From a virus, in IMG/VR virus record IMGVR_UViG_3300010157_000069, positions 1-60,447 of that record: a DNA stretch of 60,447 nt; one strand, 5' to 3'. Position numbers and translations under genes: made by a program. Shown piece by piece: positions 8,112 to 34,284 of this stretch; within the stretch, counting starts at the first letter, position 1, and every line of letters starts with the position of its first letter. Below the pieces are notes generated by a model. The model was not told where the DNA came from. It did no database searches and saw nothing but the letters and a program-made list of their open reading frames with translations.

Positions 8112-9425
8112 TTAATAACCAAATCTTGCTTTATATGTTGCGTGGAGTGATTGAATATCCGCTAAAGCTAATACACCATTGTACGCTTTGACAAATGCAA
8201 TATTACCCGATTGAACTTCTGTGCCTGCTGCTCGGCTAAACATTCTTAACTGATTAAAACCTCCACCAGCAGCATTTGTTACTGTGAATGCTGCAGCTGA
8301 TGGTGCCGTGCTTGTTGATGTATACAATTTACCAGTACTTGTAGTTGTATCCCAAGTTGCCCAGTCTAAGTGCCAAACTGTATCAGCACCAGTTGATGGT
8401 AAATTAACAGCATAGTTTGGATAAAAAGTATTTGGGTTACCATTATAAGCACCCATCAACCAATCTTTAACACCTTCATTTTGAGTATTTAATAGTCTAC
8501 CAGAAGATGTTGCGGATAGTTTGTATGCCATGAATACTGTATAACTTTGTCCAGTCACATAATTTGGACCACCGTAAATATAATCTGTTCCTGTACTATT
8601 TGATTTAGCAAACGATCCACCATTAGCACTGTTCCAAGAAAGTGAAGTGCCGTTGTTCTGGGTTATATTATAGGTTCCAGTTGCATCTTTTACATATATG
8701 AATGGTGTTGCAGAATTATATGTTACAGTACCATTATTTGTAACAGTAAGTGGGGCTGCACTATAATCAGTTAACAATGTTGAACTATTTTGTGGTTGTA
8801 TAAACAATACTGTATTTGTAATTGGGTAAAGTGGTTGTGTTGGTGGAGTAAAGTTTGCAGTATAAACTGCTGTTCCCTTGACTATTCTAAAGTTACTTAT
8901 ACGACCATTAAAATAATTGTTGGCTTGAGATGAACTATATCCAATTTCAAGTATTCTATTAGCTGAACTATCATATCCAATTCCGCTTTGAGACATTACA
9001 GAAACTCCATCTACAAATAGTGTTACAGTTCCGCTGGCTCTTACTAACGCTATATGCTGCCAAGTATTTAAGTTTATTACTGTATTGGTAGCACTTTGAT
9101 ATTGACTTCCATTGAAGTAAAAAATACCACCATTACCATTAAGGTCTACATTATCGGTGTTAGTTCCAAAATACCATAATCTTCCTGAATTGCTAGTAGT
9201 GTAGAACCAACCTTCTATTGTATAATCGGCAGTTCCAAACGCAAATGCAGCACTTGAGGCTAATGAAAGATACTGACTGGTGCCATTTAAATTAAAACTG
9301 CCACCTGTACTAGGAAGTGCTACAAAATTAGCTGCGTCTAAATCATAGACCAAACTTGGTGTAAACACTGAAGCAGTAATAGTTCTTTGAAAATTACTGG
9401 CTACCATAGCCATCATTCCACTCAT
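8112..9425 (-). CDS. Tail-fibre or adhesin protein with two LamG/ConA-like domains
   Basis: A 437-residue protein, probably a receptor- or glycan-binding virion component. After a short N-terminus the first jelly-roll (about residues 44-205) shows LamG/concanavalin signatures: FNLNGTSQYLSL, DYTIEGWFY, TWQHIALVR, FVDGVSV and YFNGRISNFRIVKGTAVYT. A second related domain occupies about 245-437 (SYTVFMAYKLSATSSGRLLN, then an IAFVKAYNGVLALADIQSLH end). Such domains bind carbohydrates or proteins in many systems. It overlaps the upstream heptad-repeat gene by one base (TAATG), so the two may form shaft and tip of one fibre. In T4, gp15 is followed directly by gp16; here these two fibre genes are inserted between them. 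Confidence 0.72.
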   Translation of the reverse strand: MSGMMAMVASNFQRTITASVFTPSLVYDLDAANFVALPSTGGSFNLNGTSQYLSLASSAAFAFGTADYTIEGWFYTTSNSGRLWYFGTNTDNVDLNGNGGIFYFNGSQYQSATNTVINLNTWQHIALVRASGTVTLFVDGVSVMSQSGIGYDSSANRILEIGYSSSQANNYFNGRISNFRIVKGTAVYTANFTPPTQPLYPITNTVLFIQPQNSSTLLTDYSAAPLTVTNNGTVTYNSATPFIYVKDATGTYNITQNNGTSLSWNSANGGSFAKSNSTGTDYIYGGPNYVTGQSYTVFMAYKLSATSSGRLLNTQNEGVKDWLMGAYNGNPNTFYPNYAVNLPSTGADTVWHLDWATWDTTTSTGKLYTSTSTAPSAAAFTVTNAAGGGFNQLRMFSRAAGTEVQSGNIAFVKAYNGVLALADIQSLHATYKARFGY

Positions 9426-12406: not shown

Positions 12407-13180
12407 TTAGTTCATCATGAATTCTAGTGGGCCACCGTAATTTGTTTCCATTTCTTGATGGAGTTGTGATATTTCTTCAATAGCTTCATCAAATACTTCT
12501 TTGCCATTCAATGTTATTCCGCCGGGTAATTGAATACCTCCAAATTTCTTCATGTTCTCACCCCAATTTTTCTTAATTAAAGCAGTAGCATAAAGTTTTA
12601 GAAATCGGTCTTGCCAAATATTTGGATATGAAGTTGGATTAATACCACCATAAGCTTCGGCAACAACTATTGTTCCTACAGGAGCTTCTTGGTCACCCCA
12701 AGCCCAATCGATATACAGTCTTTGTGTTACTCTATTCCAACGAATAGGAACTTCTCCTGTAAACATTATTTCCAATGAACGAAGATGTTGTTGAGTCAGA
12801 ACATAATTGACATAGGATGCTGAGGTAAAGTCATATAGTTCATTCAAGCGGAGTTGGTATCTTAGGTCAAACATATTAACATTAGCCTGAGAATCATTAA
12901 CTGGAAATATACGAGAGATACCAACAATTTGTATTGCATTATTGCTTTCGTCCAAAACACCAGATGCACTCAAGTATCTATTATTAATATCTTGTTGTGT
13001 TACTGAATGAATCCAATAGAATTTTTGTGTGCCATCAAAATGATAATCTTGCCAATATTGAATTGCATCATCTACTCTATCTTCAATTTGGTCTTGATCC
13101 ATGTTAATATCAATAACAGGCGCACCTAATCTACGAAGGCAGTAATCTATAAATTCTTGTCTATTATTAATTGTTGGCAT
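12407..13180 (-). CDS. 13: Neck protein gp13
   Basis: Neck connector beneath the portal. The 257 residues compare with 309 in T4. Family features: the N-terminal EFIDYCLRRLGAPVIDINMD helix, DRVDDAIQYWQDYHFDGTQK, a central DLRYQLRLNELYDFTSASYV block, and YIDWAWGDQEAPVGTIVVAE with KLYATALIKKNWGENMKKFG towards the C-terminus. Start at 13180 is supported by a good AGGAG site. It opens the gp13-gp14-gp15 neck unit. Upstream lies an inverted repeat whose loop contains a late-promoter-like box. Confidence 0.93.
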   Translation of the reverse strand: MPTINNRQEFIDYCLRRLGAPVIDINMDQDQIEDRVDDAIQYWQDYHFDGTQKFYWIHSVTQQDINNRYLSASGVLDESNNAIQIVGISRIFPVNDSQANVNMFDLRYQLRLNELYDFTSASYVNYVLTQQHLRSLEIMFTGEVPIRWNRVTQRLYIDWAWGDQEAPVGTIVVAEAYGGINPTSYPNIWQDRFLKLYATALIKKNWGENMKKFGGIQLPGGITLNGKEVFDEAIEEISQLHQEMETNYGGPLEFMMN

Positions 13181-13193
13181 TGAAAAACTCCTA

Positions 13194-13219
13194 TTATGTT
13201 CTATTTATCCAGAACATAA
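13194..13219. repeat. Inverted repeat upstream of gp13
   Basis: TTATGTTC at 13194-13201 is exactly complementary to GAACATAA at 13212-13219, giving an 8-bp stem with a 10-base loop. It lies between the stop of the small gene at 13231 and the gp13 ATG. There is no clear T-run, so an intrinsic terminator is not obvious. The loop holds the candidate late promoter. Confidence 0.6.
13202..13209 (-). promoter_or_regulatory. Candidate late promoter box GATAAATA before gp13
   Basis: Minus strand reads GATAAATA, one base from the T4 late consensus. It lies 22-29 bases upstream of the gp13 ATG and in the loop of an inverted repeat. It could start a neck transcript independent of the fibre genes upstream. 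Confidence 0.4.
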
Positions 13220-13230
13220 TCATTAGTTAT

Positions 13231-13572
13231 TTAACTTAGAGACACCCAAGAAGTGGTTGATTCGTCCCAAGAATACATCTTATCATCATTATTTCTTGGA
13301 ACTGGTGCTTGCCATAAACAAGTATCTTCGTTCAATATCCAAGATGGAAATGGTTGTGGTGGTATGAAAGCGTCACGGTCGTTATCATATGTATAACCGA
13401 CACCAGCATAATTCTTACGCAATGGTGTACCACCTTCATTATGAACACCACCATGTGTATTGTAACTTGTTTGAATCCATCCGTGACCCATTGCACCTGT
13501 ATTAATAAAATCTTGCTCTGCAACAAGTACCTGTGTTACTATTCCGTTCTCTACTTTTGCAAAATGGCTCAT
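13231..13572 (-). CDS. Small conserved phage protein, copy 1 of a duplicated gene
   Basis: A 113-residue protein of a family I recognise as common in tail-fibre regions of marine T4-like phages but without known function. It begins MSHFAKVENGIVTQVLVAEQ and has the conserved core GWIQTSYNTHGGVH, GGTPLRKNYAGVGYTYD, DAFIPPQPFPSW and a Trp-rich end (CLWQAP, TTSWV). A close paralogue lies at 21728-22072. The small, aromatic, single-domain design suggests a virion or fibre-associated domain rather than an enzyme. It is the last gene of the adhesin cassette before gp13. Confidence 0.75.
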   Translation of the reverse strand: MSHFAKVENGIVTQVLVAEQDFINTGAMGHGWIQTSYNTHGGVHNEGGTPLRKNYAGVGYTYDNDRDAFIPPQPFPSWILNEDTCLWQAPVPRNNDDKMYSWDESTTSWVSLS

Positions 13573-13581
13573 GTGTTCTCC

Positions 13582-16500
13582 TTAACGAGCGTTAGCATAC
13601 TTGAATGGGTTTTCGGCAAAGCAGGCGTAGATGTAAGTTCCGCCGCTTGTATTTTGCCGTACATCAGATGTTCTTATTTTGAATCCGTTGGACAGTGTGT
13701 CAATTGAATACGCACTTTCTTCTGCGTCAGAAGAATTTGGCTTTAATGTTAAATTTGCGGCGTTGTATGAAATTCGTGAGGAATCCCAAACAAACCAACT
13801 ATCAATGTCATTGGTATGTTTAACTAATACAAACCGTGGACGGAATCCCGTGTACACAAACGGCCCATCACTTGAGCCGTTGCCCGTGTAGCTACCAAAT
13901 GCGCTGTACCCTGCTATTGCGGAAAAAACGTAGGCAACATAGGTTCCAGCACTTGCGTTGATACCAGAAAAAGCGCCAATACCAAATACAGATGAGGTCG
14001 GGCCACCATTCCAGTAGCTTGCTGTTGTTGCTTGCGCAGCGGTGCTATTCAAATACAAATAACTTGTCGTTGGGTTAGTTAATGAACTGTGATAGGTAAG
14101 CCAATTTTCAGACCCAGAATTGCGCTGCTTCACAATAATCATGCTTGGCGTTACACCCAACCCGTGACCAACAGTGGCAGCGGTATTTGTACCCGTATAG
14201 GTAACCACGCTGAACCCAGCCGTAGGATTTGCGCTCACCGTGCTGGTGATAGAGCCGCTGGTGTTGGATACGCCTGCGCCGTTGGCTTTCCATTGCCAGC
14301 CAATGTAGGTTGAACCAGACAAGTTACTGTCTGTTGCGCTGCCAGTTGTATTGTTGCCTAAATTAAACCCGTTTGAGTTAAAGGCAATCAGGTCACCACC
14401 AGAACCAGTTCCGTTATTTCTTTCAGCGTCAGTGATATTGCTAGTTAATACGACTCCAGCGCCTCTAAGAACATCAAATAAACCAGAGCTAGCCGCCGCA
14501 CTTCGCTTCTTAATCCAAACCCAATCAGGCTGAAATACTGTGCCATTGACCGTGTTGACAATGCTCTGAGTAGAACCATTGCCCGTGTAGGTCGTAGCCG
14601 CCATTTGCGTTGCGCCATTTGGTATCGTAGGCGTGGACAGGTTGTAAGTGTTCAGCGCAACAAAGCCGCTTGGTGGGGTGTAGGTGAAGCCTTGTTGACC
14701 GAAGTTGGCGGAAATCGCTACAGAATTTTCTGGCCTACAAGCAAATGCAAGCGGGCCTGTTCCTGCGACTATGCCGATTTGGTTTGTGCCAGCCGCTGGG
14801 TTTCCGCTTGAAATCCAAGTGTTATTTTTGGCAAACCATACCTTGCGAGTTGCCCCGTCAAAAGCAATACCAAGCACATCACCAGACGCAAACGTAGCGG
14901 CCGATGAAGAAGTGGAGCCATTTATAAAGTAGCTACTGTTGTCCCATGCAATTACCCCGCTGACGTTCATCGAACCGCTTGGAGAAATATTGGCAACAGT
15001 AATATCTGCAACAGCAACAGTAGGGTATGTTGTGTTTGAAAGCGTTAATTCTGCATACCAAAGTCCTGAACCTTGTGAAGCAATTGTGGACATAAACGCA
15101 CCGCTTGGGTAATTTGGCCCTTGCGCTGTTAAATTCCCATTGGTTAAATATATTGTTGAAATATTATCTTTTCTCAATGGATTCCAAGTAGCGTAATTCG
15201 CCACTGTCGCGCTTGTCAGCGTTGGCACATCCGTCATGGAGTCGTAGGTTGTGCCAGTAGTCACGCTGATGTTGTTCGTCGTCCAGTTGTTGCCCTGCGG
15301 GCTGGTGTCGTAGCCCAGCGTGGTGGTCGATGTGTTGTTGCCGAAGGTCAGATAGAACCCGTTCGTGCCATACGAGCCGCCGTAGGTGATGGGTTGCCAT
15401 ACGCCGTAGCTGTTGAACGTGCCAAAACTGGATGGTGTCAGGGCTGCGCCGTCAATGAAGTTGACCTCAGCAAGATAGCCATCAAAATTTTCAGTGCTGG
15501 ACGATGAACATCCTAAGTAATGGGCAATTGCGCTGTTGAATTGCGTATCAAAATTTTGTGATGGGTAGTTGGTGGCAGAAAATGAAGTAACTACAACTCC
15601 ATTAACATAAATCAAAATACGATTTGATGCTGTTGCTTGCGTGGTGTCAACCGCAACTACTATGTGATACCAAGCAGATGGGTCACGATAAAGCGCAGTA
15701 GTGTAAGTTCCACCGGAAACTCCAGCGCTAAATGATACTTGAATAGCATTTGTTGAATCTAAAATAATACCACCCCAAGGAGAACCGCTATGCGCTGTAA
15801 AAAGAAATTGCGCCGCGCCTGTAGCAAGATTTCCGCGCTTAACCCAACCGCTCCATGTCCATGTTTTTTGGTTGGATGCTTTAGCGGGAGTTCGGTTCAA
15901 ATAAGAATTGTTGGTGCTACGGAACCGCAGTGAACGGCTTGCGTACTTGATGGGCGTTAGGTATCCGCTGGAGGTAAATGTGTGGATGACATTGCCGCCA
16001 GAGATGGTCACTGTGCCACCAGCCATCTGCTGGGTAGAGCCGGCGTAAGAAATGATGACTACGCCAGAGCCGCCGTTACCGCCGGTGCCTGAAACATAAG
16101 AACCACCGCCGCCGCCGCCAGTACCGGCTGTTCCACTGGTGCCGGTTGTTGTGCCACTTCCTGCGCCTCCACCGCCGGCGCCGCCGGTGCCCGCAGTGCC
16201 ACTACCATAACTACCGCCGCCGCCACCGCCAGCATAGGTAACGCTTGAACCACTAATACTGCTTGCCGTGCCTGCACCGCCATTACCTGAAATTGAACCA
16301 CCAGAACCATTTCCTCCAACTGCACTAGCGCCACCGCCACCACCAGCGGGATAAGGAGAAGATAGTTGAGTTCCATTGCTGCCGCCATTATTACCTTGAC
16401 TTGGGCTGGTACTTGGAGTATTTCCTGATCCTCCATTTGTTATAGAATTTGAAAATCCGCCACCGCCGCCACCAGATCCACCAGATCCGCCGGACAGTTC

Positions 16501-17613
16501 TCCACTATTTCCAATTCGTGCGCCGTTGCCGCCACCAGCTGAAGTAATATTTAAAAAAACTGAATTAGCGCCATTAGTTGATGCCGGTGTTCCGCTGCCA
16601 CCAACTCCTCCACTTCCTCCACTGCCAACGGTGATTACATAATTAGAGTTGGTATCAATCGTGACCCCAGTACCAGTGCGAAAACCTCCAGCACCACCGC
16701 CGCCTGAAGCGCCTCCGCCACCACCACCAACAACAAGATATTGTGCTGTCAGTGAAGACAAAGGCAACAGAGTTCCTGATGTGTTAAATATGTGAATTGT
16801 GTTTGTGCCATCAGTTGTGACAACTCCGCCACCGAATTGCTGTGCGCCAACGTAGGAGATGATTACGACACCGGAGCCTCCGTTGCCGCCCGTTGTACCA
16901 CTAACTGATGCTCCACCGCCACCACCACCAAGGTTTGCTGTACCGGAGCTACCAGCACCAGAGGATGCACCATTGCCACCACCGCCATTACCACCTGTGC
17001 CTCGAGTTGATTGAGTTGTAGCACCGCCTCCACCGCCACCAGCATAGTAGGTAGATGTGCCTGAGATGCTATTTGCAGTACCTACGCCACCAGCACCAGA
17101 TTGCCCATTTACACCGGCAGCACCGACCGCCGAAGAACCGCCGCCACCACCAGTTGCACTGTAAGAAGCATTGTCCGTAATACCTTGTCCACCAGCGTAA
17201 CCTTGCACTGGGGATGTAGATGGTGTGTTTCCAGCGCCGCCAGCGGCTGGTGTTCCATCAGGGCCACCACCACTACCAGAACCACCAGCAACGCCTACGT
17301 TACTAGCGGTAACTCCTCCCCCACCTCCTGCCGAAGTGGTTGCGTTAAATGTGGAATCACTACCAGATGCACCAGTACTATTTGCACCAGCACCTCCAGC
17401 GCCAACTGTGACTGTGTAAGACAGTGATGGGTTTAATGATGCTGTTCCCGTCCGATAACCGCCCGCGCCCCCTCCGCTACCGCCGTGAGAAGCAACGCCT
17501 CCACCACCCGCGCCCCCGCCAGCAACTACAAGATAACTGACGGTAACCGATTGCAGTCCAGTCCACCCAAAGGCAGCAAGTGCGGCCGCTCCAATTTTCG
17601 ATAAACGTGGCAT
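13582..17613 (-). CDS. Giant modular adhesin: glycine-rich repeats, LamG, SPRY-like and C-terminal receptor domains
   Basis: A 1343-residue probable host-recognition protein. The ATG at 17613 is preferred to the TTG just upstream because AGGA lies at suitable spacing. Domain order by eye: two tandem glycine-rich domains (about 27-284 and 292-555), each starting YLVV(A/G)GGG and ending in VVIISY plus a VIHTF-type strand; a LamG-like jelly roll (about 560-745, WTWSGWVKRG, WYHIVVAVD, FDGYLAEVNFIDG); a SPRY/B30.2-like region (about 850-990, GLWYAELTLS, VLGIAFDGATRKVWFAKNN); and a C-terminal part (1000-1343) of a phage type (GNGSTQSIVNTV, PDWVWIKKRS, YIGWQWKANG, PRFVLVKHTN). It lacks the beta attachment module of its neighbours. 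Base composition is far more GC-rich than flanking genes, suggesting acquisition or exchange. Confidence 0.8.
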   Translation of the reverse strand: MPRLSKIGAAALAAFGWTGLQSVTVSYLVVAGGGAGGGGVASHGGSGGGAGGYRTGTASLNPSLSYTVTVGAGGAGANSTGASGSDSTFNATTSAGGGGGVTASNVGVAGGSGSGGGPDGTPAAGGAGNTPSTSPVQGYAGGQGITDNASYSATGGGGGSSAVGAAGVNGQSGAGGVGTANSISGTSTYYAGGGGGGATTQSTRGTGGNGGGGNGASSGAGSSGTANLGGGGGGASVSGTTGGNGGSGVVIISYVGAQQFGGGVVTTDGTNTIHIFNTSGTLLPLSSLTAQYLVVGGGGGGASGGGGAGGFRTGTGVTIDTNSNYVITVGSGGSGGVGGSGTPASTNGANSVFLNITSAGGGNGARIGNSGELSGGSGGSGGGGGGFSNSITNGGSGNTPSTSPSQGNNGGSNGTQLSSPYPAGGGGGASAVGGNGSGGSISGNGGAGTASSISGSSVTYAGGGGGGSYGSGTAGTGGAGGGGAGSGTTTGTSGTAGTGGGGGGSYVSGTGGNGGSGVVIISYAGSTQQMAGGTVTISGGNVIHTFTSSGYLTPIKYASRSLRFRSTNNSYLNRTPAKASNQKTWTWSGWVKRGNLATGAAQFLFTAHSGSPWGGIILDSTNAIQVSFSAGVSGGTYTTALYRDPSAWYHIVVAVDTTQATASNRILIYVNGVVVTSFSATNYPSQNFDTQFNSAIAHYLGCSSSSTENFDGYLAEVNFIDGAALTPSSFGTFNSYGVWQPITYGGSYGTNGFYLTFGNNTSTTTLGYDTSPQGNNWTTNNISVTTGTTYDSMTDVPTLTSATVANYATWNPLRKDNISTIYLTNGNLTAQGPNYPSGAFMSTIASQGSGLWYAELTLSNTTYPTVAVADITVANISPSGSMNVSGVIAWDNSSYFINGSTSSSAATFASGDVLGIAFDGATRKVWFAKNNTWISSGNPAAGTNQIGIVAGTGPLAFACRPENSVAISANFGQQGFTYTPPSGFVALNTYNLSTPTIPNGATQMAATTYTGNGSTQSIVNTVNGTVFQPDWVWIKKRSAAASSGLFDVLRGAGVVLTSNITDAERNNGTGSGGDLIAFNSNGFNLGNNTTGSATDSNLSGSTYIGWQWKANGAGVSNTSGSITSTVSANPTAGFSVVTYTGTNTAATVGHGLGVTPSMIIVKQRNSGSENWLTYHSSLTNPTTSYLYLNSTAAQATTASYWNGGPTSSVFGIGAFSGINASAGTYVAYVFSAIAGYSAFGSYTGNGSSDGPFVYTGFRPRFVLVKHTNDIDSWFVWDSSRISYNAANLTLKPNSSDAEESAYSIDTLSNGFKIRTSDVRQNTSGGTYIYACFAENPFKYANAR

Positions 17614-17623
17614 CAATTATCCT

Positions 17624-18118
17624 TTATGCAAATTTTGTCAACGAAGCCAACACAACAAAAGTTGCACTTCCAGTTTTCTGAATAACATATGTATAACAGT
17701 CAATAGAACTTGCATTACCACTTGTTGGCGCAGAACCGCCTTGCCATTTAGGTGTTACTGAATTACCGTCAATTGTCACGGCACTATTATAATATGCTGT
17801 AGAACCTTGAGTAACTAGAAAAGTAGCAGAAGCAACTTCACCAGTTGCAAGCATAGAGTCCAAACTGTTACCACTTGAAGCTCGAAAATTAAGTGTCCAG
17901 TTTCCGGATGCGTTAGTGCTATAATACATTACAGATTGAGTAGCCAAATCATAGTTAACTGTACCTGTAGCAGCAGTCGCAGCAATCGTATCAACTTCAG
18001 CAATGCTTGACGTTTTAATAGAAGGCAGACTTGACGAACCAGTAAAAATAATGGTGTCAGTATTTTGTTGTTCTTGTATTGATGTTCCGTTAAGAACCAA
18101 TGTGTATCTAGTTGTCAT
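17624..18118 (-). CDS. Conserved phage tail or fibre-associated protein
   Basis: A 164-residue protein of a type often seen among tail-fibre genes of aquatic phages. Characteristic text: MYYSTNASGNWTLNFRAS, then ATFLVTQGSTAYYNSAVTID, SVTPKWQGGSAPTSGNASSI and a closing TYVIQKTGSATFVVLASLT. It is predicted all-beta with no signal peptide or membrane segment. No enzymatic motif is visible. Tight packing (7-8 bases to each neighbour) places it in the adhesin operon, where it probably forms a fibre or receptor-binding domain or a small accessory subunit. Function is unproven. Confidence 0.68.
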   Translation of the reverse strand: MTTRYTLVLNGTSIQEQQNTDTIIFTGSSSLPSIKTSSIAEVDTIAATAATGTVNYDLATQSVMYYSTNASGNWTLNFRASSGNSLDSMLATGEVASATFLVTQGSTAYYNSAVTIDGNSVTPKWQGGSAPTSGNASSIDCYTYVIQKTGSATFVVLASLTKFA

Positions 18119-18126
18119 ATTTTTCC

Positions 18127-18549
18127 TTAACTTACTGGCACGTTAATTGTAGAACCTGAGCGATTCAAAATTGGCAATAAACCGTTACCAACAGGTATAC
18201 TAATTGAGGAACCTGCTCTATTTAGGACGTATAAAGTAGTAGGTAATGTGCTCCAGCTAGCAGTAGTTCCATTTGTTTTTAAGAAATTATTCGCATAACC
18301 TGTTTGCGAAGGTAATGGAGAAAAAGTAGTCCATGCTGGAGGTGAATCTCCTCCACTGATTAGTACTTGTCCTGAAGTACCATATGCAGTATTACTCGTA
18401 CCAAATGCAATACCTCCATTGGAAGTCAAAGTAACTACAGTTACATTATTACCTGTTTGAAATTGCAAAGAGCCGGTACTATCGGCACTTGTTTTAAGTC
18501 CTGGTACTCCTGTTATTAATCCTGAATCTGCTGATATAATGCTAGACAT
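18127..18549 (-). CDS. Short fibre protein with shared attachment module
   Basis: A 140-residue protein. The N-terminus (SSIISADSGLITGVPGLKTS, then STGSLQFQTGNNVTVVTLTS) is a variant of the module that also starts the fibre genes at 18558, 19852 and 22091: a short strand, a T(G)xL(I/V)xTAD-like turn and an LxFQT strand. A GTSGQVLISGGDSPPAWTTF segment, common in fibre shafts, follows. Two near-identical C-terminal motifs (YVLNRAGSSISIPVG and PILNRSGSTINVPVS) form an internal repeat. Likely a minor fibre or a cut-down adhesin; it has no glycine-rich or lectin domain of its own. Confidence 0.62.
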   Translation of the reverse strand: MSSIISADSGLITGVPGLKTSADSTGSLQFQTGNNVTVVTLTSNGGIAFGTSNTAYGTSGQVLISGGDSPPAWTTFSPLPSQTGYANNFLKTNGTTASWSTLPTTLYVLNRAGSSISIPVGNGLLPILNRSGSTINVPVS

Positions 18550-18557
18550 TTTTTTCC

Positions 18558-19688
18558 TTATGCTGTGTATGTGCCGCTGGAGGTGAACGTGTGGATTGTG
18601 TTTCCACCAGAAGATGTTACTGTACCGCCAGAACCGCGTTGTGAACCGGAGTAACTGATGATTACGATACCGGAGCCGCCATTGCCACCAATTCTTCCAT
18701 TACTTCCGGCATTACCACCGCCGCCGCCGCCACCGCCAAGATTTGTAGTGCCAGCAACTCCATTTGCGCCGTTGTAAACAGCCCCGGCTCCACCACCGCC
18801 AGCGCCGCCTGCTCCGTTGGTTCCCCCGTTGATACCACCACCTCCACCACCACCAGCGTAATATGTGGAAGTACCTGAAATTGAAGAAGCAAGGCCAGCG
18901 CCGCCTGCACCAGAATTAGAGGTACTAGAACCGCCTACTGCGCCAGCGCCACCACCGCCGCTGCACCCGTTTCCGCCACTGGCAGTTCCACCTGCATTAC
19001 CTTGCCCTGCTGTGCCAGCGTAACCACTGGTAGCGGGGCCACCGCCGCTTCCAGAACCGCCAGCAATTCCGTTACCAGTGCCTCCGCCAATTGCAGTAAG
19101 AGAACTAAGAACTGAATTGCCGCCTGCTGTTGCGGTGTAGGTGCCATCTCCTGTTCCACCAGCGCCAATGGTGACGGCATATGCAGTTCCCGAAGCAAGA
19201 CTCAAAGAACTGCCCGACAACAACCCACCAGCCCCGGCTCCGCCACCTGCTGGCCCATAACCGCCCCCGCCGCCAGCCACAACTAAATAGCTAACTGCGT
19301 ATGTAGTAACAATTGAACCCCAGTAGGAGCCGTTGTACAGTTCAAATGAAGACGTTGTGGAGTTGTAGCGAATCATGCCAGCCACTGCTGTGGGCTGCTG
19401 TGCAGTAGTGCCGATGGGCAATGTCAATGCACCCGTGCTATTCAAGGTGACGTTCTGGCTCGTGTCGATGGTGACCGCAGTCGTTCCTGCGCTTTTTATT
19501 GTTAGTGCCGTAGCTGCTGCTGAACCAATAGTATTTACCGTAGCTGTGCCTGCAAAGGTAGTGTTCCGGCTTGCATCTATGGTGACCGCAGTTGTTCCTG
19601 CCGTTTGGAATGCAAGGACTCCTGAGGCATCTGCGGTCTGTATTAAACCACCTGTACCTGTATTGCTGGCGTTGATTGTTGTGGTCAT
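18558..19688 (-). CDS. Modular fibre protein with glycine-rich C-terminal domain
   Basis: A 376-residue protein. Residues 1-90 form the shared attachment and shaft part, with tandem copies of a TTAVTID(A/T)S strand unit. A TAQQPTAVAGMIRYNSTTSS segment at about 95-115 is a frequent fibre motif. From residue 133 a glycine-rich domain begins (SYLVVAGGGGG) and ends SGIVIISYSGSQ and GGNTIHTFTSSGTYTA. The same C-terminal domain ends the gene at 22091-23638, with long near-identical DNA stretches. Glycine-rich folds of this kind are known at receptor-binding tips of some T4-like adhesins, so a host-contact role is likely. It overlaps the small gene upstream by ATGA. Confidence 0.75.
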   Translation of the reverse strand: MTTTINASNTGTGGLIQTADASGVLAFQTAGTTAVTIDASRNTTFAGTATVNTIGSAAATALTIKSAGTTAVTIDTSQNVTLNSTGALTLPIGTTAQQPTAVAGMIRYNSTTSSFELYNGSYWGSIVTTYAVSYLVVAGGGGGYGPAGGGAGAGGLLSGSSLSLASGTAYAVTIGAGGTGDGTYTATAGGNSVLSSLTAIGGGTGNGIAGGSGSGGGPATSGYAGTAGQGNAGGTASGGNGCSGGGGAGAVGGSSTSNSGAGGAGLASSISGTSTYYAGGGGGGGINGGTNGAGGAGGGGAGAVYNGANGVAGTTNLGGGGGGGGNAGSNGRIGGNGGSGIVIISYSGSQRGSGGTVTSSGGNTIHTFTSSGTYTA

Positions 19689-19855
19689 GCTGGTGTATCC
19701 GCTGGTTCAGGTGTATTACCTTCAGCAAGCCATTCTAGGTAGGCTTCAGCAGTAACTAAACAAGATTCCTGCTTGCCATCAGACCATTCACGCCACACAA
19801 CATTTTCTTGTTGAGTCGTTGGGTCTTTAACTAATTTCCAAATTGGTGTTGTCAT
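19685..19855 (-). CDS. Small fibre-linked protein (WLAEGNTPEPAD family)
   Basis: A 56-residue gene joined to both neighbours by ATGA overlaps: its ATG at 19855-19853 overlaps the stop of the fibre gene at 19852, and its TGA at 19687-19685 overlaps the ATG of the gene at 18558. It begins MTTPIWKLVKDPTTQQENVV, contains REWSDGKQES and ends with the motif YLEWLAEGNTPEPAD. That C-terminal motif recurs in small proteins downstream of phage tail-fibre genes, some annotated as fibre-assembly or minor tail proteins. Two-sided translational coupling supports it as real despite its size. Function is not known. Confidence 0.75.
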   Translation of the reverse strand: MTTPIWKLVKDPTTQQENVVWREWSDGKQESCLVTAEAYLEWLAEGNTPEPADTPA

Positions 19856-21069
19856 AATTCACATCCTGTCGCAATAATTAAACTAGTCGCACTACTGCTT
19901 TGTAAAGAAGTTGCATTTCCAATAGTAAGACCACTTGAACCAGTTACATTTAAGGCAAAAGTTGACAAATTTGTTCCAGTTCCATAAATAGCTACTGTTC
20001 CTGCGGCAGAAGTTCCATAATTAGCTGGTATCACAGCAAAAGTTCCACTAGTCGTTATTCCTGTTGCCGCTACTCTAGGCTGAACAGGATAAGGTGCTGT
20101 AAAAATAGCCGCAGTTGATGCATAACATTGTCCCGCAAACGGGAAATTGCTACTTGCACCAGAAACAGACCAAGCAGGACAATATCTCTGACATAAAGCC
20201 AACTCAGTACCATACGGGCGGTAATCAAACGATGTAGCTGTGCTGCCTTTTTCTAGCTGTACGCCTGTGATGTAGAACGTGGCTCCGCTTGTGCCGACTA
20301 CGCTGGTTGCGCCTGTAGCAGAACGATAATCACCAGCCGCCCATGCTCCAGCCGTTCCGCTAAAAGTAGAGCCTACACCCAATCCAAAATTAACATAAAC
20401 CCCAACCCCATTAGTTGCCCCCGCCCAAGTTCCAGTAGTATCACCAGCAATTGTTATGCTGATTGTTGTCCATGTATTTGCTGAAGAGATGGTGTATGTA
20501 AAAGGATATGACCTATTAAAACTTGACCCATTTCCTAAACTTCCACCAAAAGTTCCAGTAAGTGATGAATAAACTCTAAAAGATAATGTAACTGTCTGTG
20601 CGTTTGCAGTACCCCAAGCCATATCTGCAAAATTAAACCCTTCAATTGCTTGAATAAATGTGTAAATGCTTCCAGCAACTATTGAAAATGCCGATTGGGA
20701 TGTTATTCCAAAATAGTTATTAAATCCAACTGGAGGAGTTACCGAGCCAGCATTTTGTTGCCCAACAACTTTACCAGTTGTCGGGTATTGAACAACTTGC
20801 CATCTATCTACCGTGTATCCACTAATAGTATTCGCCGTTGCCGCCCCCGCATTACGCTGGTCAATCACCATCGCACCATTGATGATGCGGTTCTTGAAGC
20901 CAAAGGTGTTTGGCAGGTTTGCGTAGCCAGCAAAGGTGGCATTTTGCGAAGTATCCAGTGTGAGCGCAGTCGTGCCGTTGTTGGTCTGCAATACCAACGC
21001 ACCTGTGGTATCAGCAGTAGCAACCAAACCGGTACTGGATGTTGTTCCTGCAGAAATACTTGATGCCAT
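19852..21069 (-). CDS. Tail-fibre protein with carbohydrate-binding-like C-terminal domain
   Basis: A 405-residue fibre. Residues 1-50 are the shared attachment module (ISAGTTSSTGLVATADTTGA, ALTLDTSQNATFAG). It continues with GFKNRIINGAMVIDQRNAGA, a hallmark of a widespread phage fibre domain. The body (about 75-290) is a beta-sandwich resembling carbohydrate-binding modules, with FYITGVQLEKGSTATSFDYR and YGTELALCQRYC at its end; the latter is a recurrent motif in aquatic phage fibres. Residues 300-405 form a further beta domain. Probably binds a cell-surface glycan. The gene is rich in Thr, Ser and Gly and is coupled by ATGA to the 56-residue gene. Confidence 0.78.
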   Translation of the reverse strand: MASSISAGTTSSTGLVATADTTGALVLQTNNGTTALTLDTSQNATFAGYANLPNTFGFKNRIINGAMVIDQRNAGAATANTISGYTVDRWQVVQYPTTGKVVGQQNAGSVTPPVGFNNYFGITSQSAFSIVAGSIYTFIQAIEGFNFADMAWGTANAQTVTLSFRVYSSLTGTFGGSLGNGSSFNRSYPFTYTISSANTWTTISITIAGDTTGTWAGATNGVGVYVNFGLGVGSTFSGTAGAWAAGDYRSATGATSVVGTSGATFYITGVQLEKGSTATSFDYRPYGTELALCQRYCPAWSVSGASSNFPFAGQCYASTAAIFTAPYPVQPRVAATGITTSGTFAVIPANYGTSAAGTVAIYGTGTNLSTFALNVTGSSGLTIGNATSLQSSSATSLIIATGCEL

Positions 21070-21078
21070 TTATTATCC

Positions 21079-21693
21079 TTAAAAAATTAACCAGCGTTGG
21101 CCGCTGGTAATTGTAACTGATTGTCCATTCGCCACAGTCACAGGACCAACTGTCATAGCATTATAACCTGCAGCAATTGTATAACTTGAACTTATCGTTG
21201 CTCTATTTAGGTATAAACCATTATTTGCCGTGACTACAGATGCTTGTAATTCACCGGTAGATGGTTTATATAACAAATTTGTATTGCTGGTATAAACTGT
21301 AGTCGCAGAACCAGTTGTTGATGCCGCAAACAATGGATACTCATAACTAGCAGTCGTTGTATCGTTGCTTAGAGTTGCACCACCAACAGAAGTCCATGCA
21401 GGAGATGCACCACCATATCCCTCAAATTGGCTTGTCGTTGTATTGTAACGCAACATACCAGTAGCTGGACTTGCTGGTTGTTGTCCTGTTGTACCTTTAC
21501 TTAATGTAAGAGCTCCAGTGGATGTAAAAGTGCCATTTTGGTTTGCATCAATCAAAAAGGCTTGTGTGCCGTTAGTGGATATAGCTAATTGATTTGTGTT
21601 TGGATAGTAAACACCCGTAGTTGTGCCAGCAGTACCACCTTGTATTGCTGGTGTCGTTGCGCTATTGTCTGTGCCGTTAAGAAATAATGGCAT
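21079..21693 (-). CDS. Short tail-fibre protein
   Basis: A 204-residue protein. It starts MPLFLNGTDNSATTPAIQGG and includes GVYYPNTNQLAISTNGTQAF and LTLSKGTTGQQPASPATGML, typical of fibre shafts that alternate strand and turn. The C-terminal 45 residues (LYLNRATISSSYTIAAGYNA, then SVTITSGQRWLIF) match the end of the heptad fibre at 23648-25891 (SGQRWIIL), a common fibre-capping motif. Placed 10 bases before the next fibre gene and 34 bases after the duplicated small gene. Probably one subunit of a set of alternative or cooperating fibres. Confidence 0.68.
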   Translation of the reverse strand: MPLFLNGTDNSATTPAIQGGTAGTTTGVYYPNTNQLAISTNGTQAFLIDANQNGTFTSTGALTLSKGTTGQQPASPATGMLRYNTTTSQFEGYGGASPAWTSVGGATLSNDTTTASYEYPLFAASTTGSATTVYTSNTNLLYKPSTGELQASVVTANNGLYLNRATISSSYTIAAGYNAMTVGPVTVANGQSVTITSGQRWLIF

Positions 21694-21727
21694 AGTTTAC
21701 TCCACAATTTAGAATGGTTGTTTTCAT

Positions 21728-22072
21728 TTATTCCAGAACAACCCAAGAAGTAGTTGATTCATTCCATTCGTATATGCCGTCAGTAGGCATTGGTGTTGGT
21801 GCATCCCACAGGCAAGTTTCATCATTCAATGTCCAAGATGGAAATGGTTGTGGTGGAATAAAAGCGTCACGGGTTCTATCGTAAGTAAAACCAACACCAG
21901 CGTAATTTTTACGCAATGGAGTGCCGCCGTTAGCGTGAACACCGCCTCGGGTATTATAACTAGTCTGGATCCATTCACCAGGACTTGTGTCTACGAATGT
22001 TTGAAAAAACTCAGGTTCAGCCACAATGACTTGAACTACTACGCCGTTTGATACTTTTGCAAAATGTGCCAT
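21728..22072 (-). CDS. Small conserved phage protein, copy 2 of the duplicated gene
   Basis: A 114-residue paralogue of the gene at 13231-13572. Shared blocks include AHFAKV(S/E)NG, WIQTSYNT(R/H)GGVH, GGTPLRKNYAGVG(F/Y)TYD, RDAFIPPQPFPSW and the final W(D)ESTTSWV. Differences cluster in the N-terminal third (EPEFFQTFVDTSPGE here), so the copies have diverged but remain intact. Both are on the minus strand and bracket 8.2 kb of adhesin genes. Function unknown; maintenance of two intact copies argues that each is used. Confidence 0.78.
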   Translation of the reverse strand: MAHFAKVSNGVVVQVIVAEPEFFQTFVDTSPGEWIQTSYNTRGGVHANGGTPLRKNYAGVGFTYDRTRDAFIPPQPFPSWTLNDETCLWDAPTPMPTDGIYEWNESTTSWVVLE

Positions 22073-22090: not shown

Positions 22091-23638
22091 TTATGCTGTG
22101 TATGTACCGCTTGATGTAAATGTATGTATAGTGTTTCCACCAGAAGATGTTACTGTACCACCTGTGCCTTTTTGCGAACCGGAGTAACTGATGATGACGA
22201 TGCCGGAACCACCATTAGTGCCCGTATTTGGGGCGTTCCATGTACAGCCCCCACCACCACCAGAATTTACAGTCGCGGCATTGGGATATGCGCCGCCGCC
22301 ACCTGCACCGCCGCTGCCGTTACCACCAGCGCCGGCACCACCACCACCGCCAGCGTAAGTAACACTGGAACCGGATATGCTACTTGCTGTTCCAGCACCA
22401 CCCGTTCCACCAGAAGAACCAGAACCAGAATTTCCGGCCGCTGAAGCGCCTCCGCCGCCACCACACGCATTGCCACCACCTCCACCGCCACCGGCATTTC
22501 CTTGCCCAGTAGTGCCAGAGCCGCCGCCATTACCACCGCGGCCGCCACCACCAGAACCACCAGAAACGCCAGTACCGGAACTACCGCCACCACCACCAAG
22601 AGCAGTTACAAGACTACCAATACTTGAATTACCGCCGGTATCACCAACACCGGTTGCCGCTGGTTGAGCGGATCCACCTGCACCAACAGTCACTGTGTAT
22701 GCGGTTCCAGTAAGAACACTGGTAGACGAAGTTAAAAGGCCTCCAGCCCCTCCGCCACCTGAACCTCCGCTGCCACCGCCACCGCCAGCAACTACCAAAT
22801 AACTGACTGTGTAAAAACCTAAATTAGCTAATGTGGTGAGAAATGTTGGTGTAAGAGCCGTGCTGAACACAAACCATGAAGTGGATGCAGAACGATATAT
22901 GTAAGATATTGATTGTCCCGGCACTAACCCAGGAATTGTGTTATTCAGCGTCTGTCCTGTATTAGCATTAAGTGTAAGTGTAGTAATTTCTTTTGTGCTA
23001 CTGAAGCTAACCACCATTCCATCACTAGGTGAAGCAGGCATTGTAATGGTTCCGGTAAGCAATGTACCGGCCGGGTTGATTATCAGCGTGTTGTAGGTGC
23101 TGAAAGTATATGAGAACCCCGTAGTCGGGACTAGGTAGTCGTAGTTTTGCACTACGCCTTTACCAGTGGATTTAATTGTGCCCGCGAACGTGGCGTTTTG
23201 GCTTGTGTCAATAGTGACCGCTGTGTTTCCATTAGTAGCAATAGTAACTGGACCACCAGACGAGGCCACAGATACGTTAGATGTGCCGTTAGAAATGGAT
23301 GTTGTTGACAGAGTAGTCCAAGTAGGTGATGCACTCGATCCTGCTGAAGTCAGAACTTGTCCGTTTGTTCCAAAAGATGGTGTAGAACCTAAACCTATTG
23401 CTTGACTTGAATTAAGTGTGAGCGCAGTAGTTCCTGCACTTTTTAATGTGAGTGATGTAGCTGCTGCCGAAGTGATAGTGTTTGATGTAATTGAACCATT
23501 AAATGTTACATTTTGATTAGAATCGATAAGAACTGCATTAGCTGAACTTGTACCAGTTTGTATTTGCAGATTGCCAGATAAATCTGACCTTACTGTAAAT
23601 GCTGTTGTGAGTAAAGTTCCAGTTGATAGTGTGCTCAT
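22091..23638 (-). CDS. Modular fibre protein with glycine-rich C-terminal domain
   Basis: A 515-residue protein. The N-terminal half holds the shared attachment module (STGTLLTTAFTVRSDLSGNL) and several repeated strand units (TTALTLNSSQ, NTAVTIDTSQNATFAGTIKS). A middle domain from about residue 170 (YDYLVPTTGFSYTFSTYNTL) is beta-rich. From about 278 a glycine-rich domain starts SYLVVAGGGGG and ends SGIVIISYSGSQKG and GGNTIHTFTSSGTYTA, nearly the same as in the gene at 18558-19688. DNA in this C-terminal part is markedly GC-rich relative to the phage. It probably forms a host-binding tip on a fibre shaft. Confidence 0.75.
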   Translation of the reverse strand: MSTLSTGTLLTTAFTVRSDLSGNLQIQTGTSSANAVLIDSNQNVTFNGSITSNTITSAAATSLTLKSAGTTALTLNSSQAIGLGSTPSFGTNGQVLTSAGSSASPTWTTLSTTSISNGTSNVSVASSGGPVTIATNGNTAVTIDTSQNATFAGTIKSTGKGVVQNYDYLVPTTGFSYTFSTYNTLIINPAGTLLTGTITMPASPSDGMVVSFSSTKEITTLTLNANTGQTLNNTIPGLVPGQSISYIYRSASTSWFVFSTALTPTFLTTLANLGFYTVSYLVVAGGGGGSGGSGGGGAGGLLTSSTSVLTGTAYTVTVGAGGSAQPAATGVGDTGGNSSIGSLVTALGGGGGSSGTGVSGGSGGGGRGGNGGGSGTTGQGNAGGGGGGGNACGGGGGASAAGNSGSGSSGGTGGAGTASSISGSSVTYAGGGGGAGAGGNGSGGAGGGGAYPNAATVNSGGGGGCTWNAPNTGTNGGSGIVIISYSGSQKGTGGTVTSSGGNTIHTFTSSGTYTA

Positions 23639-30264: not shown

Positions 30265-30591
30265 TTATGTTATTTCTAATAGACTAACTATCACATCAAC
30301 TGAAGAAGCTGTATTTGTATTTACTGAAAGATAATCACCAGATTCCAATACTACTTTTTGGCCGCCGCCTATTGGAATTAAAGAACTTCCTGGATCAATC
30401 TGAGCACTTTTTACCATATAAAAATTTGAACCACTAATGTTTAAAATAACATTTGCAGATATTGAAGTATTTAATAGATTTGCAACTGACATACCAATAA
30501 TTGTGGCTTGAGTTCCGGCGCCAGCTGTATACACTACTGTCGGAGATGTACCGACTGCGGCCGATCCATAATTTTTAAAACTATTTGCCAT
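30265..30591 (-). CDS. Small conserved virion protein
   Basis: A 108-residue beta-rich protein, MANSFKNYGSAAVGTSPTVV, then TIIGMSVANL and VKSAQIDPGSSLIPIGGGQK, ending SSVDVIVSLLEIT. The pattern (a strand with VGT, a turn with a cytokine-like name IIGMSVAN, then a surface-loop GGG) is recurrent in small structural proteins of T4-like aquatic phages. No catalytic motif. It is separated from the next heptad gene by one base and follows a gene with short heptad repeats. Probably a fibre- or baseplate-attachment domain; the exact role is unknown. Confidence 0.65.
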   Translation of the reverse strand: MANSFKNYGSAAVGTSPTVVYTAGAGTQATIIGMSVANLLNTSISANVILNISGSNFYMVKSAQIDPGSSLIPIGGGQKVVLESGDYLSVNTNTASSVDVIVSLLEIT

Positions 30592-30617
30592 TTTTATTTC
30601 CTAATAACTTATATTTA

Positions 30618-30995
30618 TTAACCTAATGCAATCGCATAAGCCAATGCATCTGAATCAGCTGTATTTGCTTTAGAGAAAGCTGCATTTGCATAAATTCCAG
30701 TTGTATTTTGACTAGCATATGAAGAATTTGCGGCAATAAAAGCAGCATTTATTCCAGCAGTCGCAGAATTTGCAGCTGCAAAAGCTAGGTTTGATTGATT
30801 ATATGCTGTAGAAACTTGCGATAAAGCAGTATTTGCAGTAGATAAAGCTGAATTAGCTACATCGTAAATTTGCTGAATCTGTTGAGATTGACTTGATGCA
30901 CCTAAAAATTGTGCAGTGGATTGTACAGATGCGGGTGCTCCTGGTCCAACCCTTACACTAATTTGTGATATAGGATTTACTACTACTGTTGCCAT
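30618..30995 (-). CDS. Short heptad-repeat fibre-type protein
   Basis: A 125-residue protein. The N-terminus (MATVVVNPISQISVRVGPGA) is beta-like; residues about 35-110 consist of heptad-like units (YDVANSA, STANTAL, YNQSNLA, FAAANSA, YANAAFS) of the same family as the long fibres. It could be a short connector that continues the coiled coil of a neighbour or a truncated relative of the larger shaft genes. Its start overlaps the gene at 30995-31360 by one base, so the two are translated together. Confidence 0.65.
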   Translation of the reverse strand: MATVVVNPISQISVRVGPGAPASVQSTAQFLGASSQSQQIQQIYDVANSALSTANTALSQVSTAYNQSNLAFAAANSATAGINAAFIAANSSYASQNTTGIYANAAFSKANTADSDALAYAIALG

Positions 30996-31360
30996 TATGC
31001 ATCTGTACCATAAGAATTGGTTACACCAGTAACTCCTGGAGATACATAAATTTGTCCTTCTAACACCCTAGAAACTTGATTTGTTGCACTTGTTGTGATA
31101 ACATCATACACATACTTGCCATACGGAATGTTTGCGGTTACTGGCGCAGTTAAAGAAAGTGTTATAATTCCGTTGTTTGCACTGGTAATTGTTGTTGTAA
31201 TATTGAACGCAACATTGGCGGTGGTATAAGACTTTTTAGCTCTTGATGATACAGTAAATCCTGTAAGATTATAAGGGCTTCCGTAATCGTCAGCTAATGT
31301 TAGTTGTGATGTAAAAGTGGAACCTTGTTCCAAATATTGGTCTGAATATCCTGCGGCCAT
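30995..31360 (-). CDS. Small beta-rich structural protein, fibre-attachment type
   Basis: A 121-residue protein that begins MAAGYSDQYLEQGSTFTSQL and continues with a DYGSPYNLTGFTVSSRAKKS loop and IPYGKYVYDVITTSATNQVS. The pattern (an EQG(S/A)TF strand, NLTG, then a KYVYDV strand) is typical of small phage baseplate or fibre-anchoring immunoglobulin-like domains. A CATAAATA box 32 bases upstream could drive it separately from the S74 fibre. No enzyme motif is visible. Structural assignment is from pattern and context. Confidence 0.68.
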   Translation of the reverse strand: MAAGYSDQYLEQGSTFTSQLTLADDYGSPYNLTGFTVSSRAKKSYTTANVAFNITTTITSANNGIITLSLTAPVTANIPYGKYVYDVITTSATNQVSRVLEGQIYVSPGVTGVTNSYGTDA

Positions 31361-34062: not shown

Positions 34063-34284
34063 TTAACCTTTTATTAGTAATTGTTGCAACAACGATTTAA
34101 TCTCGGACATGTCCGATTTGATGCAATCTATTTCTGATTTTACTTTATTTATTTCTTCTTTTTGAATCTTTACCAACCTAAGTTTATTATAATACTCATT
34201 TTTTTCTGTACTATCTGTAGGCAAAAGAGCTCTACTGTTTATATCACGAACAAAATTTGTTCCAGTAACTCTTACTAGTTCCAT
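34063..34284 (-). CDS. Small coiled-coil protein
   Basis: A 73-residue protein: MELVRVTGTNFVRDINSRAL leads into an amphipathic helix from about residue 28 to 70 (EYYNKLRLVKIQKEEINKVK, then SDMSEIKSLLQQLLIKG) that looks like a coiled coil. The N-terminal VTGTNFVRDINSRALLPTD is a pattern I associate with small proteins next to large T4-like structural genes in aquatic phages. It lies one base downstream of the 730-residue structural gene. It may be a linker or chaperone of the fibre or baseplate; function unknown. Confidence 0.68.
   Translation of the reverse strand: MELVRVTGTNFVRDINSRALLPTDSTEKNEYYNKLRLVKIQKEEINKVKSEIDCIKSDMSEIKSLLQQLLIKG

Follow-up and report, generated by a model that had tools for sequence, protein, structure and literature searches.

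Two small genes of a phage host-recognition-type locus as proposed chaperones of separately acquired adhesin modules

When a small gene occurs twice in a fiber-rich region of a phage genome, do its copies bracket an exchangeable cassette, or does each belong to the gene beside it? The question is raised by S1 and S2 (Table 1), paralogous ORFs that lie about 8.5 kb apart on the same strand of the window, the whole 60,447-nt stretch of viral DNA analyzed here. The initial annotation read them as direct repeats of strongly similar DNA bounding a series of host-recognition genes. We confirmed both ORFs, as well as the 1344-aa protein, the fiber-type ORFs, and the 56-aa ORF that it had placed between them. 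S1 and S2 are the only copies of the small gene in the window; their proteins share 67.5% identity over 114 aa, far above chance, and the S2 protein as a query recovered S1 in the 104-kb contig of the same phage (E 4.5e-52). Both match phrog_7759, a PHROGs family of unknown function. The small family has no Pfam match, and neither phrog_7759 nor DUF7483, the domain at the C-terminus of the 1344-aa protein, was found mentioned in the literature searched. Although unannotated, the family is abundant, with at least 593 relatives in IMG/VR in a scan with S1; the closest non-self relative of S2 (89%) is in locus L164.

Table 1. Features of the locus discussed in the text
Feature	Position	Strand	Description
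Neck protein	12407..13180	-	phrog_211 head-tail adaptor Ad2; conserved flank
Late-promoter-like site GATAAATA	13202..13209	-	ahead of neck gene
S1	13231..13572	-	113 aa; proposed chaperone of 1344-aa protein; phrog_7759, E 3.3e-33
1344-aa adhesin-type protein	13582..17616	-	partner of S1; two Gly_rich_2 stretches and C-terminal DUF7483
164-aa ORF	17624..18118	-	phrog_5906; ahead of 1344-aa gene and S1
376-aa glycine-rich protein	18558..19688	-	PF21722; no small gene behind it, next gene is a 140-aa ORF
S2	21728..22072	-	114 aa; proposed chaperone of 515-aa protein; phrog_7759, E 4.7e-31
515-aa glycine-rich adhesin-type protein	22091..23638	-	PF21722; partner of S2
108-, 125-, and 121-aa genes	30265..31360	-	near far side of region; phrog_1084, phrog_3304
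Baseplate wedge-type gene	41820-43244

At the base level, the similarity of the two copies was lower than had been claimed: codon-aligned identity was 69.9%, the longest identical run was 25 bp, and third codon positions were 51.8% identical. Recent duplication or gene conversion was rejected on this third-position identity and the lack of a long identical run. Recombination between S1 and S2 that excises or swaps the intervening 8.5 kb could draw on two copies in the same orientation, with a best-conserved core of about 178 bp at 79% DNA identity, and on a locus that is indeed variable. However, both the short identical run and the diverged third positions argue against it, and comparison with related loci gave it no support. 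Both copies and everything between them were retained in all three IMG/VR contigs of the same phage that span the interval, and no single-copy junction was found among these contigs. In 75 relatives selected by the neck protein (L007-L082 without L021; at least 300 bp upstream fetched, 0.4-10 kb seen), a small gene stood beside the neck gene only in L017 (52% identical), and none was present in the stretch seen upstream of the neck gene in the other 74; most relatives thus have neither copy within the stretch seen, and the small gene was absent from seven of eight long records. As shown below, the variable part also exceeds the interval, and S1 and S2 are not sisters. We therefore consider such an excision or swap extremely unlikely, and S1 and S2 probably do not bracket a single exchangeable cassette. 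Nor do they delimit the series of adhesin-type genes, the 515-aa partner of S2 lying just beyond the proposed cassette.

The broader proposal of an exchangeable locus of the host-recognition type was supported: relatives with an 86-98% identical neck protein have other fiber-type genes beside it, and the region, which adjoins the phrog_211 neck gene, is fiber-rich and non-syntenic among relatives. In all 11 closest loci (L007-L017, some of which are near-copies of one another), DNA homology ended at 13210-13238, between the S1 stop codon and the neck gene, which places S1 inside the variable part. In seven of seven relatives, identity fell from 70-90% in the 50 bp immediately upstream of the neck gene to 42-53% in the 60 bp beyond these, and GATAAATA or TATAAATA preceded the neck gene in 17 of the 20 relatives viewed. 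Late promoters of the T4 type resemble GATAAATA. The neck-side border of the exchangeable region is this promoter-like site of the neck gene. At the other end, the variable region extends past S2 and is larger than the S1-S2 interval. Near its far side, the 108-aa and 121-aa genes are retained in G002 at 70% and 71% aa identity, respectively; the latter is of the LtfC-like/L-shaped tail fiber assembly type, with a PF23926 match below its cut-off. The 56-aa ORF had no PHROG or Pfam match and no relative in a set of 242 sequences except in the same phage.

Duplication within the phage's own lineage, followed by divergence, could also have produced two members of one family. By score, however, S2 ranked only 85th of 152 among the relatives of S1, and S1 88th of 152 among those of S2; for each copy, more than 80 proteins from other phages scored as closer relatives than did its counterpart in the window. 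A sister clade of S1 and S2 was rejected by DNA trees of 8 rows (p-AU 0.042) and 12 rows (p-AU 0.003), the rows of both being picked after the larger tree had been seen, whereas this larger protein tree of 113 rows (proteins more than 86% alike and those shorter than 95 residues dropped) left the clade standing (p-AU 0.172, lnL 37 lower). Taking ranks and trees together, we regard duplication as very unlikely. The 8-row tree was built without L208 and L132 and the 12-row tree with both; the grouping of S1 with homologs partnered by DUF7483-type proteins had a support of 100/99 in the former and dropped to 78/80 in the latter. With L208 and L132 included, the case for independent origins of S1 and S2 thus became stronger and the link of S1 to DUF7483 partners weaker. 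L208, itself DUF7483-partnered, fell on the S2 side in the 12-row tree and outside in the 113-row tree. Small genes are not cleanly sorted by partner type, which counts against the chaperone function proposed below.

The position of the small gene was then compared across the fetched loci. We classified ORFs as glycine-rich (at least 25 Gly in some 100 residues) or DUF7483-type (C-terminal FAENP motif). Among loci with an upstream neighbor, 156 of 163 small genes lay directly behind such an ORF, as did 125 of 2262 other ORFs; both counts leave out the window and the near-identical contigs L003-L006 and L083 and keep L163 (same phage), and the loci, chosen as the best S1/S2 matches, are not independent, which limits this support. 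A broader count including own-phage contigs gave the same order in 176 of 183. The gap between the two genes was 8-18 bp in 139 of 182 cases, with 9 bp for S1 and 18 bp for S2. Of 37 matched phage records, eight were inspected, and the upstream ORF was glycine-rich in seven; all six small-gene copies of Melnitz-2 and -3 also follow a glycine-rich ORF. Cultured phages that carry the small gene include Roseobacter phage CRP-207, Pelagibacter phage HTVC025P, and Melnitz. Paired homologs recur elsewhere: in L105 and L108, an adjacent pair of large and small genes is preceded immediately by the 164-aa ORF (76% and 75%, respectively, by tblastn), and in L164, where large and small genes are adjacent, the protein preceding the S2 homolog shares 74% aa identity with the 515-aa protein. 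L108 and L164 carry other structural genes, and the neck protein of the window had no match in the fetched stretches of these three loci. Since the two copies are not sisters and small genes stand directly behind glycine-rich or DUF7483-type ORFs, S1 and S2 each form the 3' end of a two-gene module, the two modules having been acquired separately. The locus looks like a bracketed cassette because two modules in one phage end with the same type of gene.

We then considered what the small protein might do for its partner. The 1344-aa partner of S1 is a putative adhesin, judging from its matches to Pfam PF21722 and PF24299 and to phrog_24898 (tail fiber protein). An AlphaFold model of S1 (pLDDT 85.9), compared by Foldseek with 350,542 PDB chains, gave 7ypx_a as the top match (probability 0.99; E 0.08, which is weak), and no other match exceeded a probability of 0.10. 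This chain is gp25, the chaperone of the glycine-rich fiber gp24 of cyanophage Pam3. Chaperones of the gp25/Tfa type are characterized by an N-terminal fiber-binding β-sandwich domain and are required for the fiber to fold or trimerize. Residues 1-72 of the model superposed on residues 3-57 of 7ypx_a (VIA Z 5.5, below the safe level of the tool; rmsd 2.4, 53 residues), and the fiber-binding domain of gp25 comprises residues 1-55 (PMC9608196). The model contains a single short helix (20-25), and beyond residue 60 it shows nothing but short strands; the C-terminal helical trimerization domain of the gp25 type is absent, the protein ending at residue 113. By sequence, the small family had no meaningful match in the PDB (one chance-level match, E 0.9). 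A profile of the glycine-rich ends gave two PDB matches at E ≤ 10, both to the Pam3 fiber (E 0.15-0.17, not significant and with a strong glycine-content bias), while phmmer with the 1344-aa and 515-aa proteins returned only unrelated low-scoring PDB chains. An AlphaFold model of the glycine-rich end of the 515-aa protein (pLDDT 68) gave no useful match and did not find Pam3. Mu Tfa was not among the fold matches listed for S1, which is uninformative either way.

On the basis of the fixed gene order, the separate ancestry, the paired homologs elsewhere, and the predicted fold like the gp25 fiber-binding domain, we propose that S1 and S2 are rather likely to be intermolecular tail-fiber chaperones whose genes immediately follow those of the adhesin-type proteins they serve; location directly downstream of the fiber gene served is also a feature of gp25/Tfa-type chaperones. 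The small protein would bind the newly made adhesin at its distal glycine-rich (or DUF7483) part, keep its loops ordered during trimerization, and afterwards leave or cap it, as gp25 does for gp24. Adhesin and small gene would be swapped jointly, as both must fit, forming one module in a host recognition cluster that runs from the baseplate genes to the neck gene. Several observations count against this chaperone reading. Of 281 glycine-rich or DUF7483-type ORFs, 125 had no small gene, and the same was true of all 47 in the neck-selected relatives; P-RSM4 carries a 30% homolog of the small gene in a different context. In two loci, L208 and L238, the small gene is separated from the glycine-rich ORF by a distinct DUF7483-type ORF, which makes the domain bound uncertain.

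If the small protein were not a transient chaperone but stayed in the virion as a permanent adhesin tip or cap, the gene order should be no different, and the lack of the gp25 trimerization domain, like the virion-retained chaperones of Mu and Ur-lambda (cited in PMC9608196), fits this alternative. However, the small family was more conserved than the partner ends in 149 of 150 random locus pairs (medians of 67 and 44 identical residues per 100, respectively), unlike a receptor-contacting tip, and virions of Pam3 were not found to contain gp25 (PMC9608196). A permanent cap therefore appears unlikely. Extending the chaperone reading to all of phrog_7759, we tentatively suggest, with somewhat less than even confidence, a widespread group of minimal 'tentacle-only' fiber chaperones, in which a Trp-containing strand segment replaces the helical trimerization domain behind a gp25-type fiber-binding domain. 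Such proteins might order the glycine-rich trimer without a helical bundle, or stay as a cap, as part of a two-gene plug-in across phage lineages. If the small gene encodes a chaperone of glycine-rich adhesins, it flags receptor-binding proteins directly upstream in uncultured aquatic phages and shows which two genes to take together for expressing adhesins or tracking their spread.

Among known systems, gp24-gp25 of Pam3 (PMC9608196; PDB 7ypx) similarly combines a distal glycine-rich fiber domain with its own chaperone, whose fiber-binding domain resembles residues 1-72 of the S1 model. Pam3 gp25, however, has 162 residues with a helical trimerization domain at 64-162, whereas members of the small family have about 113 residues, end in a conserved Trp-containing strand segment, and have no sequence match to gp25. 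Adhesins of the gp38 type (phage S16, described in PMC9608196) also have a glycine-rich distal receptor-binding part; by this description, gp38 binds gp37 and forms the tip itself, whereas S1 and S2, which follow their glycine-rich partners, are not glycine-rich themselves. Alteromonas phages A5 and V22 have a fiber and a downstream chaperone in a module common to unrelated phages, although by description the common stretch there spans about ten genes, and dependence on the chaperone was measured (PMC10579305). In pelagimyophages and cyanomyophages, the host recognition cluster is described as a hypervariable fiber-rich island in a T4-type structural region, with the neck gene at one border and the VrlC gene at the other, and the window locus matches it in its neck-gene border and variable fiber content (PMC7029224).

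The window covers the structural region of a T4-type phage with its genes on the minus strand; in gene order, a baseplate wedge-type gene comes first, followed by large fibre-type genes and then by the neck gene and a head-closure gene. S1 and S2, two small paralogous genes, are the only members of their family in the window; both matched phrog_7759, which PHROG annotates as of unknown function, and a Pfam search matched no family to either. Each follows a gene for a large protein that we infer to be an adhesin from its glycine-rich and fibre-type family matches: S1 begins 9 bp after a 1344-aa gene (Gly_rich_2 and DUF7483) and S2 begins 18 bp after a 515-aa gene (Gly_rich_2). The 56-aa ORF had no family match, and its relatives in a 242-sequence set came from this phage alone. 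ORFs of 73–86 aa occupy the place corresponding to the 73-aa ORF in the long relative records G002, G005, G006, G007, and G009, matched by position only.

Genes and ORFs of the window considered in this analysis
Feature	Position	Strand	Remarks
Baseplate wedge-type gene	41820-43244	(-)	start of the region in gene order
73-aa ORF	34063-34284	(-)	between the 730-aa and 884-aa genes
884-aa fibre gene	31407-34061	(-)	C-terminal end is an intramolecular chaperone (Peptidase_S74)
S2	21728-22072	(-)	114 aa, phrog_7759
56-aa ORF	19685-19855	(-)	overlaps each neighbour by 4 bp
S1	13231-13572	(-)	113 aa, phrog_7759
Neck gene	12407-13180	(-)	phrog_211; reached after the large fibre-type genes
Second variable gene	8112-9425	(-)	beyond the neck genes on the other side

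The same arrangement was found in the fetched relative loci. Glycine-rich ORFs were defined by at least 25 Gly within 100 residues and DUF7483-type ORFs by a FAENP C-terminus, and the window and this phage's own contigs (L003–L006 and L083) were excluded. Of the 163 small genes that had a neighbour, 156 then lay directly behind such an ORF, compared with 125 of 2262 other ORFs. A wider list gave 176 of 183, with one small gene at a contig edge and six classed as other, three of which (L017, L116, and L191) were by eye truncated ORFs whose ends are glycine-rich or resemble such ends. Eight of 37 matched phage records were inspected, and all except P-RSM4 had a glycine-rich ORF directly upstream; that of phiPsal1 was unannotated and detected in another frame. 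Melnitz-2 and -3, with three small genes each, showed a glycine-rich ORF upstream in 6/6 cases. Two consecutive adhesin–small-gene pairs with differing copies were found in L088, L159, L199/L200, and L206. The rule is one-way: among 281 ORFs of the glycine-rich or DUF7483 type, 156 had a small gene behind them, but none of the 47 in the neck-selected relatives did, nor did the window's 376-aa glycine-rich gene.

The initial annotation had taken S1 and S2 for paralogues with strongly similar DNA. The paralogy held, with 67.5% protein identity, a likeness that excludes chance, although the paralogues are diverged; the DNA was less alike than described (69.9% codon-aligned identity, 51.8% at third positions), the longest identical run being 25 bp and the best core 79% over ~178 bp. 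Ordinary homologous recombination would work poorly on copies as diverged as these. Among 152 distinct small proteins, a set built from the best 80 matches of each query, S2 ranked 85th by score among the matches of S1 and S1 ranked 88th among those of S2 (query counted); each copy is thus nearer to some 80 or more proteins from other phages than the two are to each other. A constraint joining S1 and S2 was rejected in 8-row and 12-row DNA trees (p-AU 0.042 and 0.003), whose rows were picked after a larger tree had been viewed, and was not rejected in a 113-row protein tree (p-AU 0.172; lnL 37 lower). In the 8-row tree, which is without L132 and L208, S1 clustered with three homologues belonging to DUF7483-type partners and S2 with three belonging to glycine-rich partners (support 100/99 for both). 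With L132, L208, L215, and L167 added in the 12-row tree, the S2 group had support of 100/98, the S1 grouping went down to 78/80 and now included L215, and the DUF7483-partnered L208 fell on the S2 side; L208 was likewise outside the S1 group in the 113-row tree (80/65). As far as these trees indicate, S1 and S2 are not sisters; the trees suggest, at most, a strict match of each small gene to the type of its partner. The L164 contig carries two S2-type small genes near its opposite ends (L255:255-590; L256, record positions 56027-56362). They match S2 at 90% and 88% identity and each other at 275/336 bases ungapped, a closer pair than S1 and S2.

It had also been proposed that the two copies, as direct repeats, recombine to excise or swap an ~8.5 kb host-range cassette. 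Both junctions are spanned by three IMG/VR contigs, from datasets 3300010334, 3300027741, and 3300027749; these are 99.9–100% identical to the window over 14–20 kb and all retain S1, S2, and the interval, and no excision variant was found among them. A fourth contig with the S1–neck junction was too short to be informative. With diverged copies, a homology border outside S1, and no excision variants, the repeat-bracket mechanism was not supported.

An exchangeable locus as such was borne out, with other genes beside the conserved neck gene, and S1 and S2 are not its bounds. In all 11 closest loci (L007–L017, some near-copies of each other), DNA homology stopped at window 13210-13238, between the S1 stop and the neck gene. 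In 7/7 relatives tested, identity was 70–90% within the 50 bp nearest the neck gene and 42–53% over the adjoining 60 bp upstream; the conserved 50 bp contain GATAAATA, and 17 of the 20 relatives viewed have GATAAATA or TATAAATA ahead of their neck gene. A single one of 75 neck relatives with at least 300 bp of upstream sequence, L017, had a small gene in the stretch seen (52% identical), and in L147, fetched via its small gene, this gene lies 5.3 kb from the neck gene. Seven of the eight long records G002–G009, which may be fragments, lacked any copy and one had a partial match elsewhere. G002 resembles the window in the neck (93%) and baseplate wedge (83%) proteins and keeps the 108- and 121-aa genes at 70–71%; because it has no close counterpart of the genes that lie between the 108-aa gene and the neck (best 34%), the variable part reaches well beyond S2. 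The locus is of a known kind: one study names an island of this sort, lying between VrlC and the neck gene gp14, the host recognition cluster (PMC7029224).

Several fibre-type genes of L009:145-9377 and window 18127-21693 are alike over their first 40–70 residues (61–81%) and have different bodies, and the bodies therefore seem to have been swapped behind a conserved N-terminal part. The ORF adjoining the neck gene in L007 (3-359) has a 73% match to the C-terminal end of the 884-aa fibre, probably another swap at the neck border. The L007 counterpart of the second variable gene encodes 233 versus 437 aa, though neighbouring genes are 98% identical.

The modules were also found together elsewhere. 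L105 and L108 showed piecewise DNA homology to the window across the 164-aa ORF, the 1344-aa gene, and S1; in L164 the homology takes in S2 together with the end of its 515-aa partner gene (1069 bp, 78%). The window neck protein had no match in the fetched stretches of these three loci, and L108 and L164 hold other structural genes (phrog_3287 and phrog_32327). L238, with a 66% identical neck protein, has the order of the window up to the neck gene, the DUF7483-type part being a separate ORF. Judged from these sequences, the adhesin and the small gene would move between phages as a unit. Two contigs of one dataset (3300011115), L108:10001-14122 and L164:5001-10050, share the downstream families phrog_32327 and phrog_3287, one with an S1-type module and the other with an S2-type module.

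A model of S1 from an alignment of 73 rows from fetched loci (pLDDT 85.9) had a strand-strand-helix-strand fold followed by short strands. Among 350,542 PDB chains, Foldseek matched it to 7ypx_a with a probability of 0.99, all others being ≤0.10, and VIA-align superposed residues 1-72 of the model on residues 3-57 of this chain (Z 5.5, rmsd 2.4, 53 residues), the sole one of 47 with Z of 2 or more. This chain of the cyanophage Pam3 fibre complex is, by its length, gp25, the chaperone of the glycine-rich tail fibre gp24. When a profile of the glycine-rich ends was compared with the PDB, every chain matched at E ≤ 10 came from the Pam3 fibre, though the match was non-significant (E 0.15) and strongly affected by composition bias; a structure search with one modelled end did not recover Pam3. 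The small protein was more conserved than the last 230 residues of its partner in 149 of 150 random locus pairs, a pattern that fits a helper better than a tip in contact with the receptor. Because two weak pointers lead to both partners of one complex, we adopted the reading, which we consider reasonably probable, that the small gene encodes a chaperone of its adhesin. Such a chaperone would bind the adhesin, fit it specifically, and then release it. Since the 884-aa fibre ends in Peptidase_S74, fibre helpers of three types (S74, LtfC-like, and phrog_7759) may be in use side by side in this phage. In place of the bracketed cassette, the better finding is a two-gene adhesin–chaperone module with an unannotated, widespread, and shortened putative chaperone. 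The gp25 chain has 162 residues, compared with 113 aa in S1.
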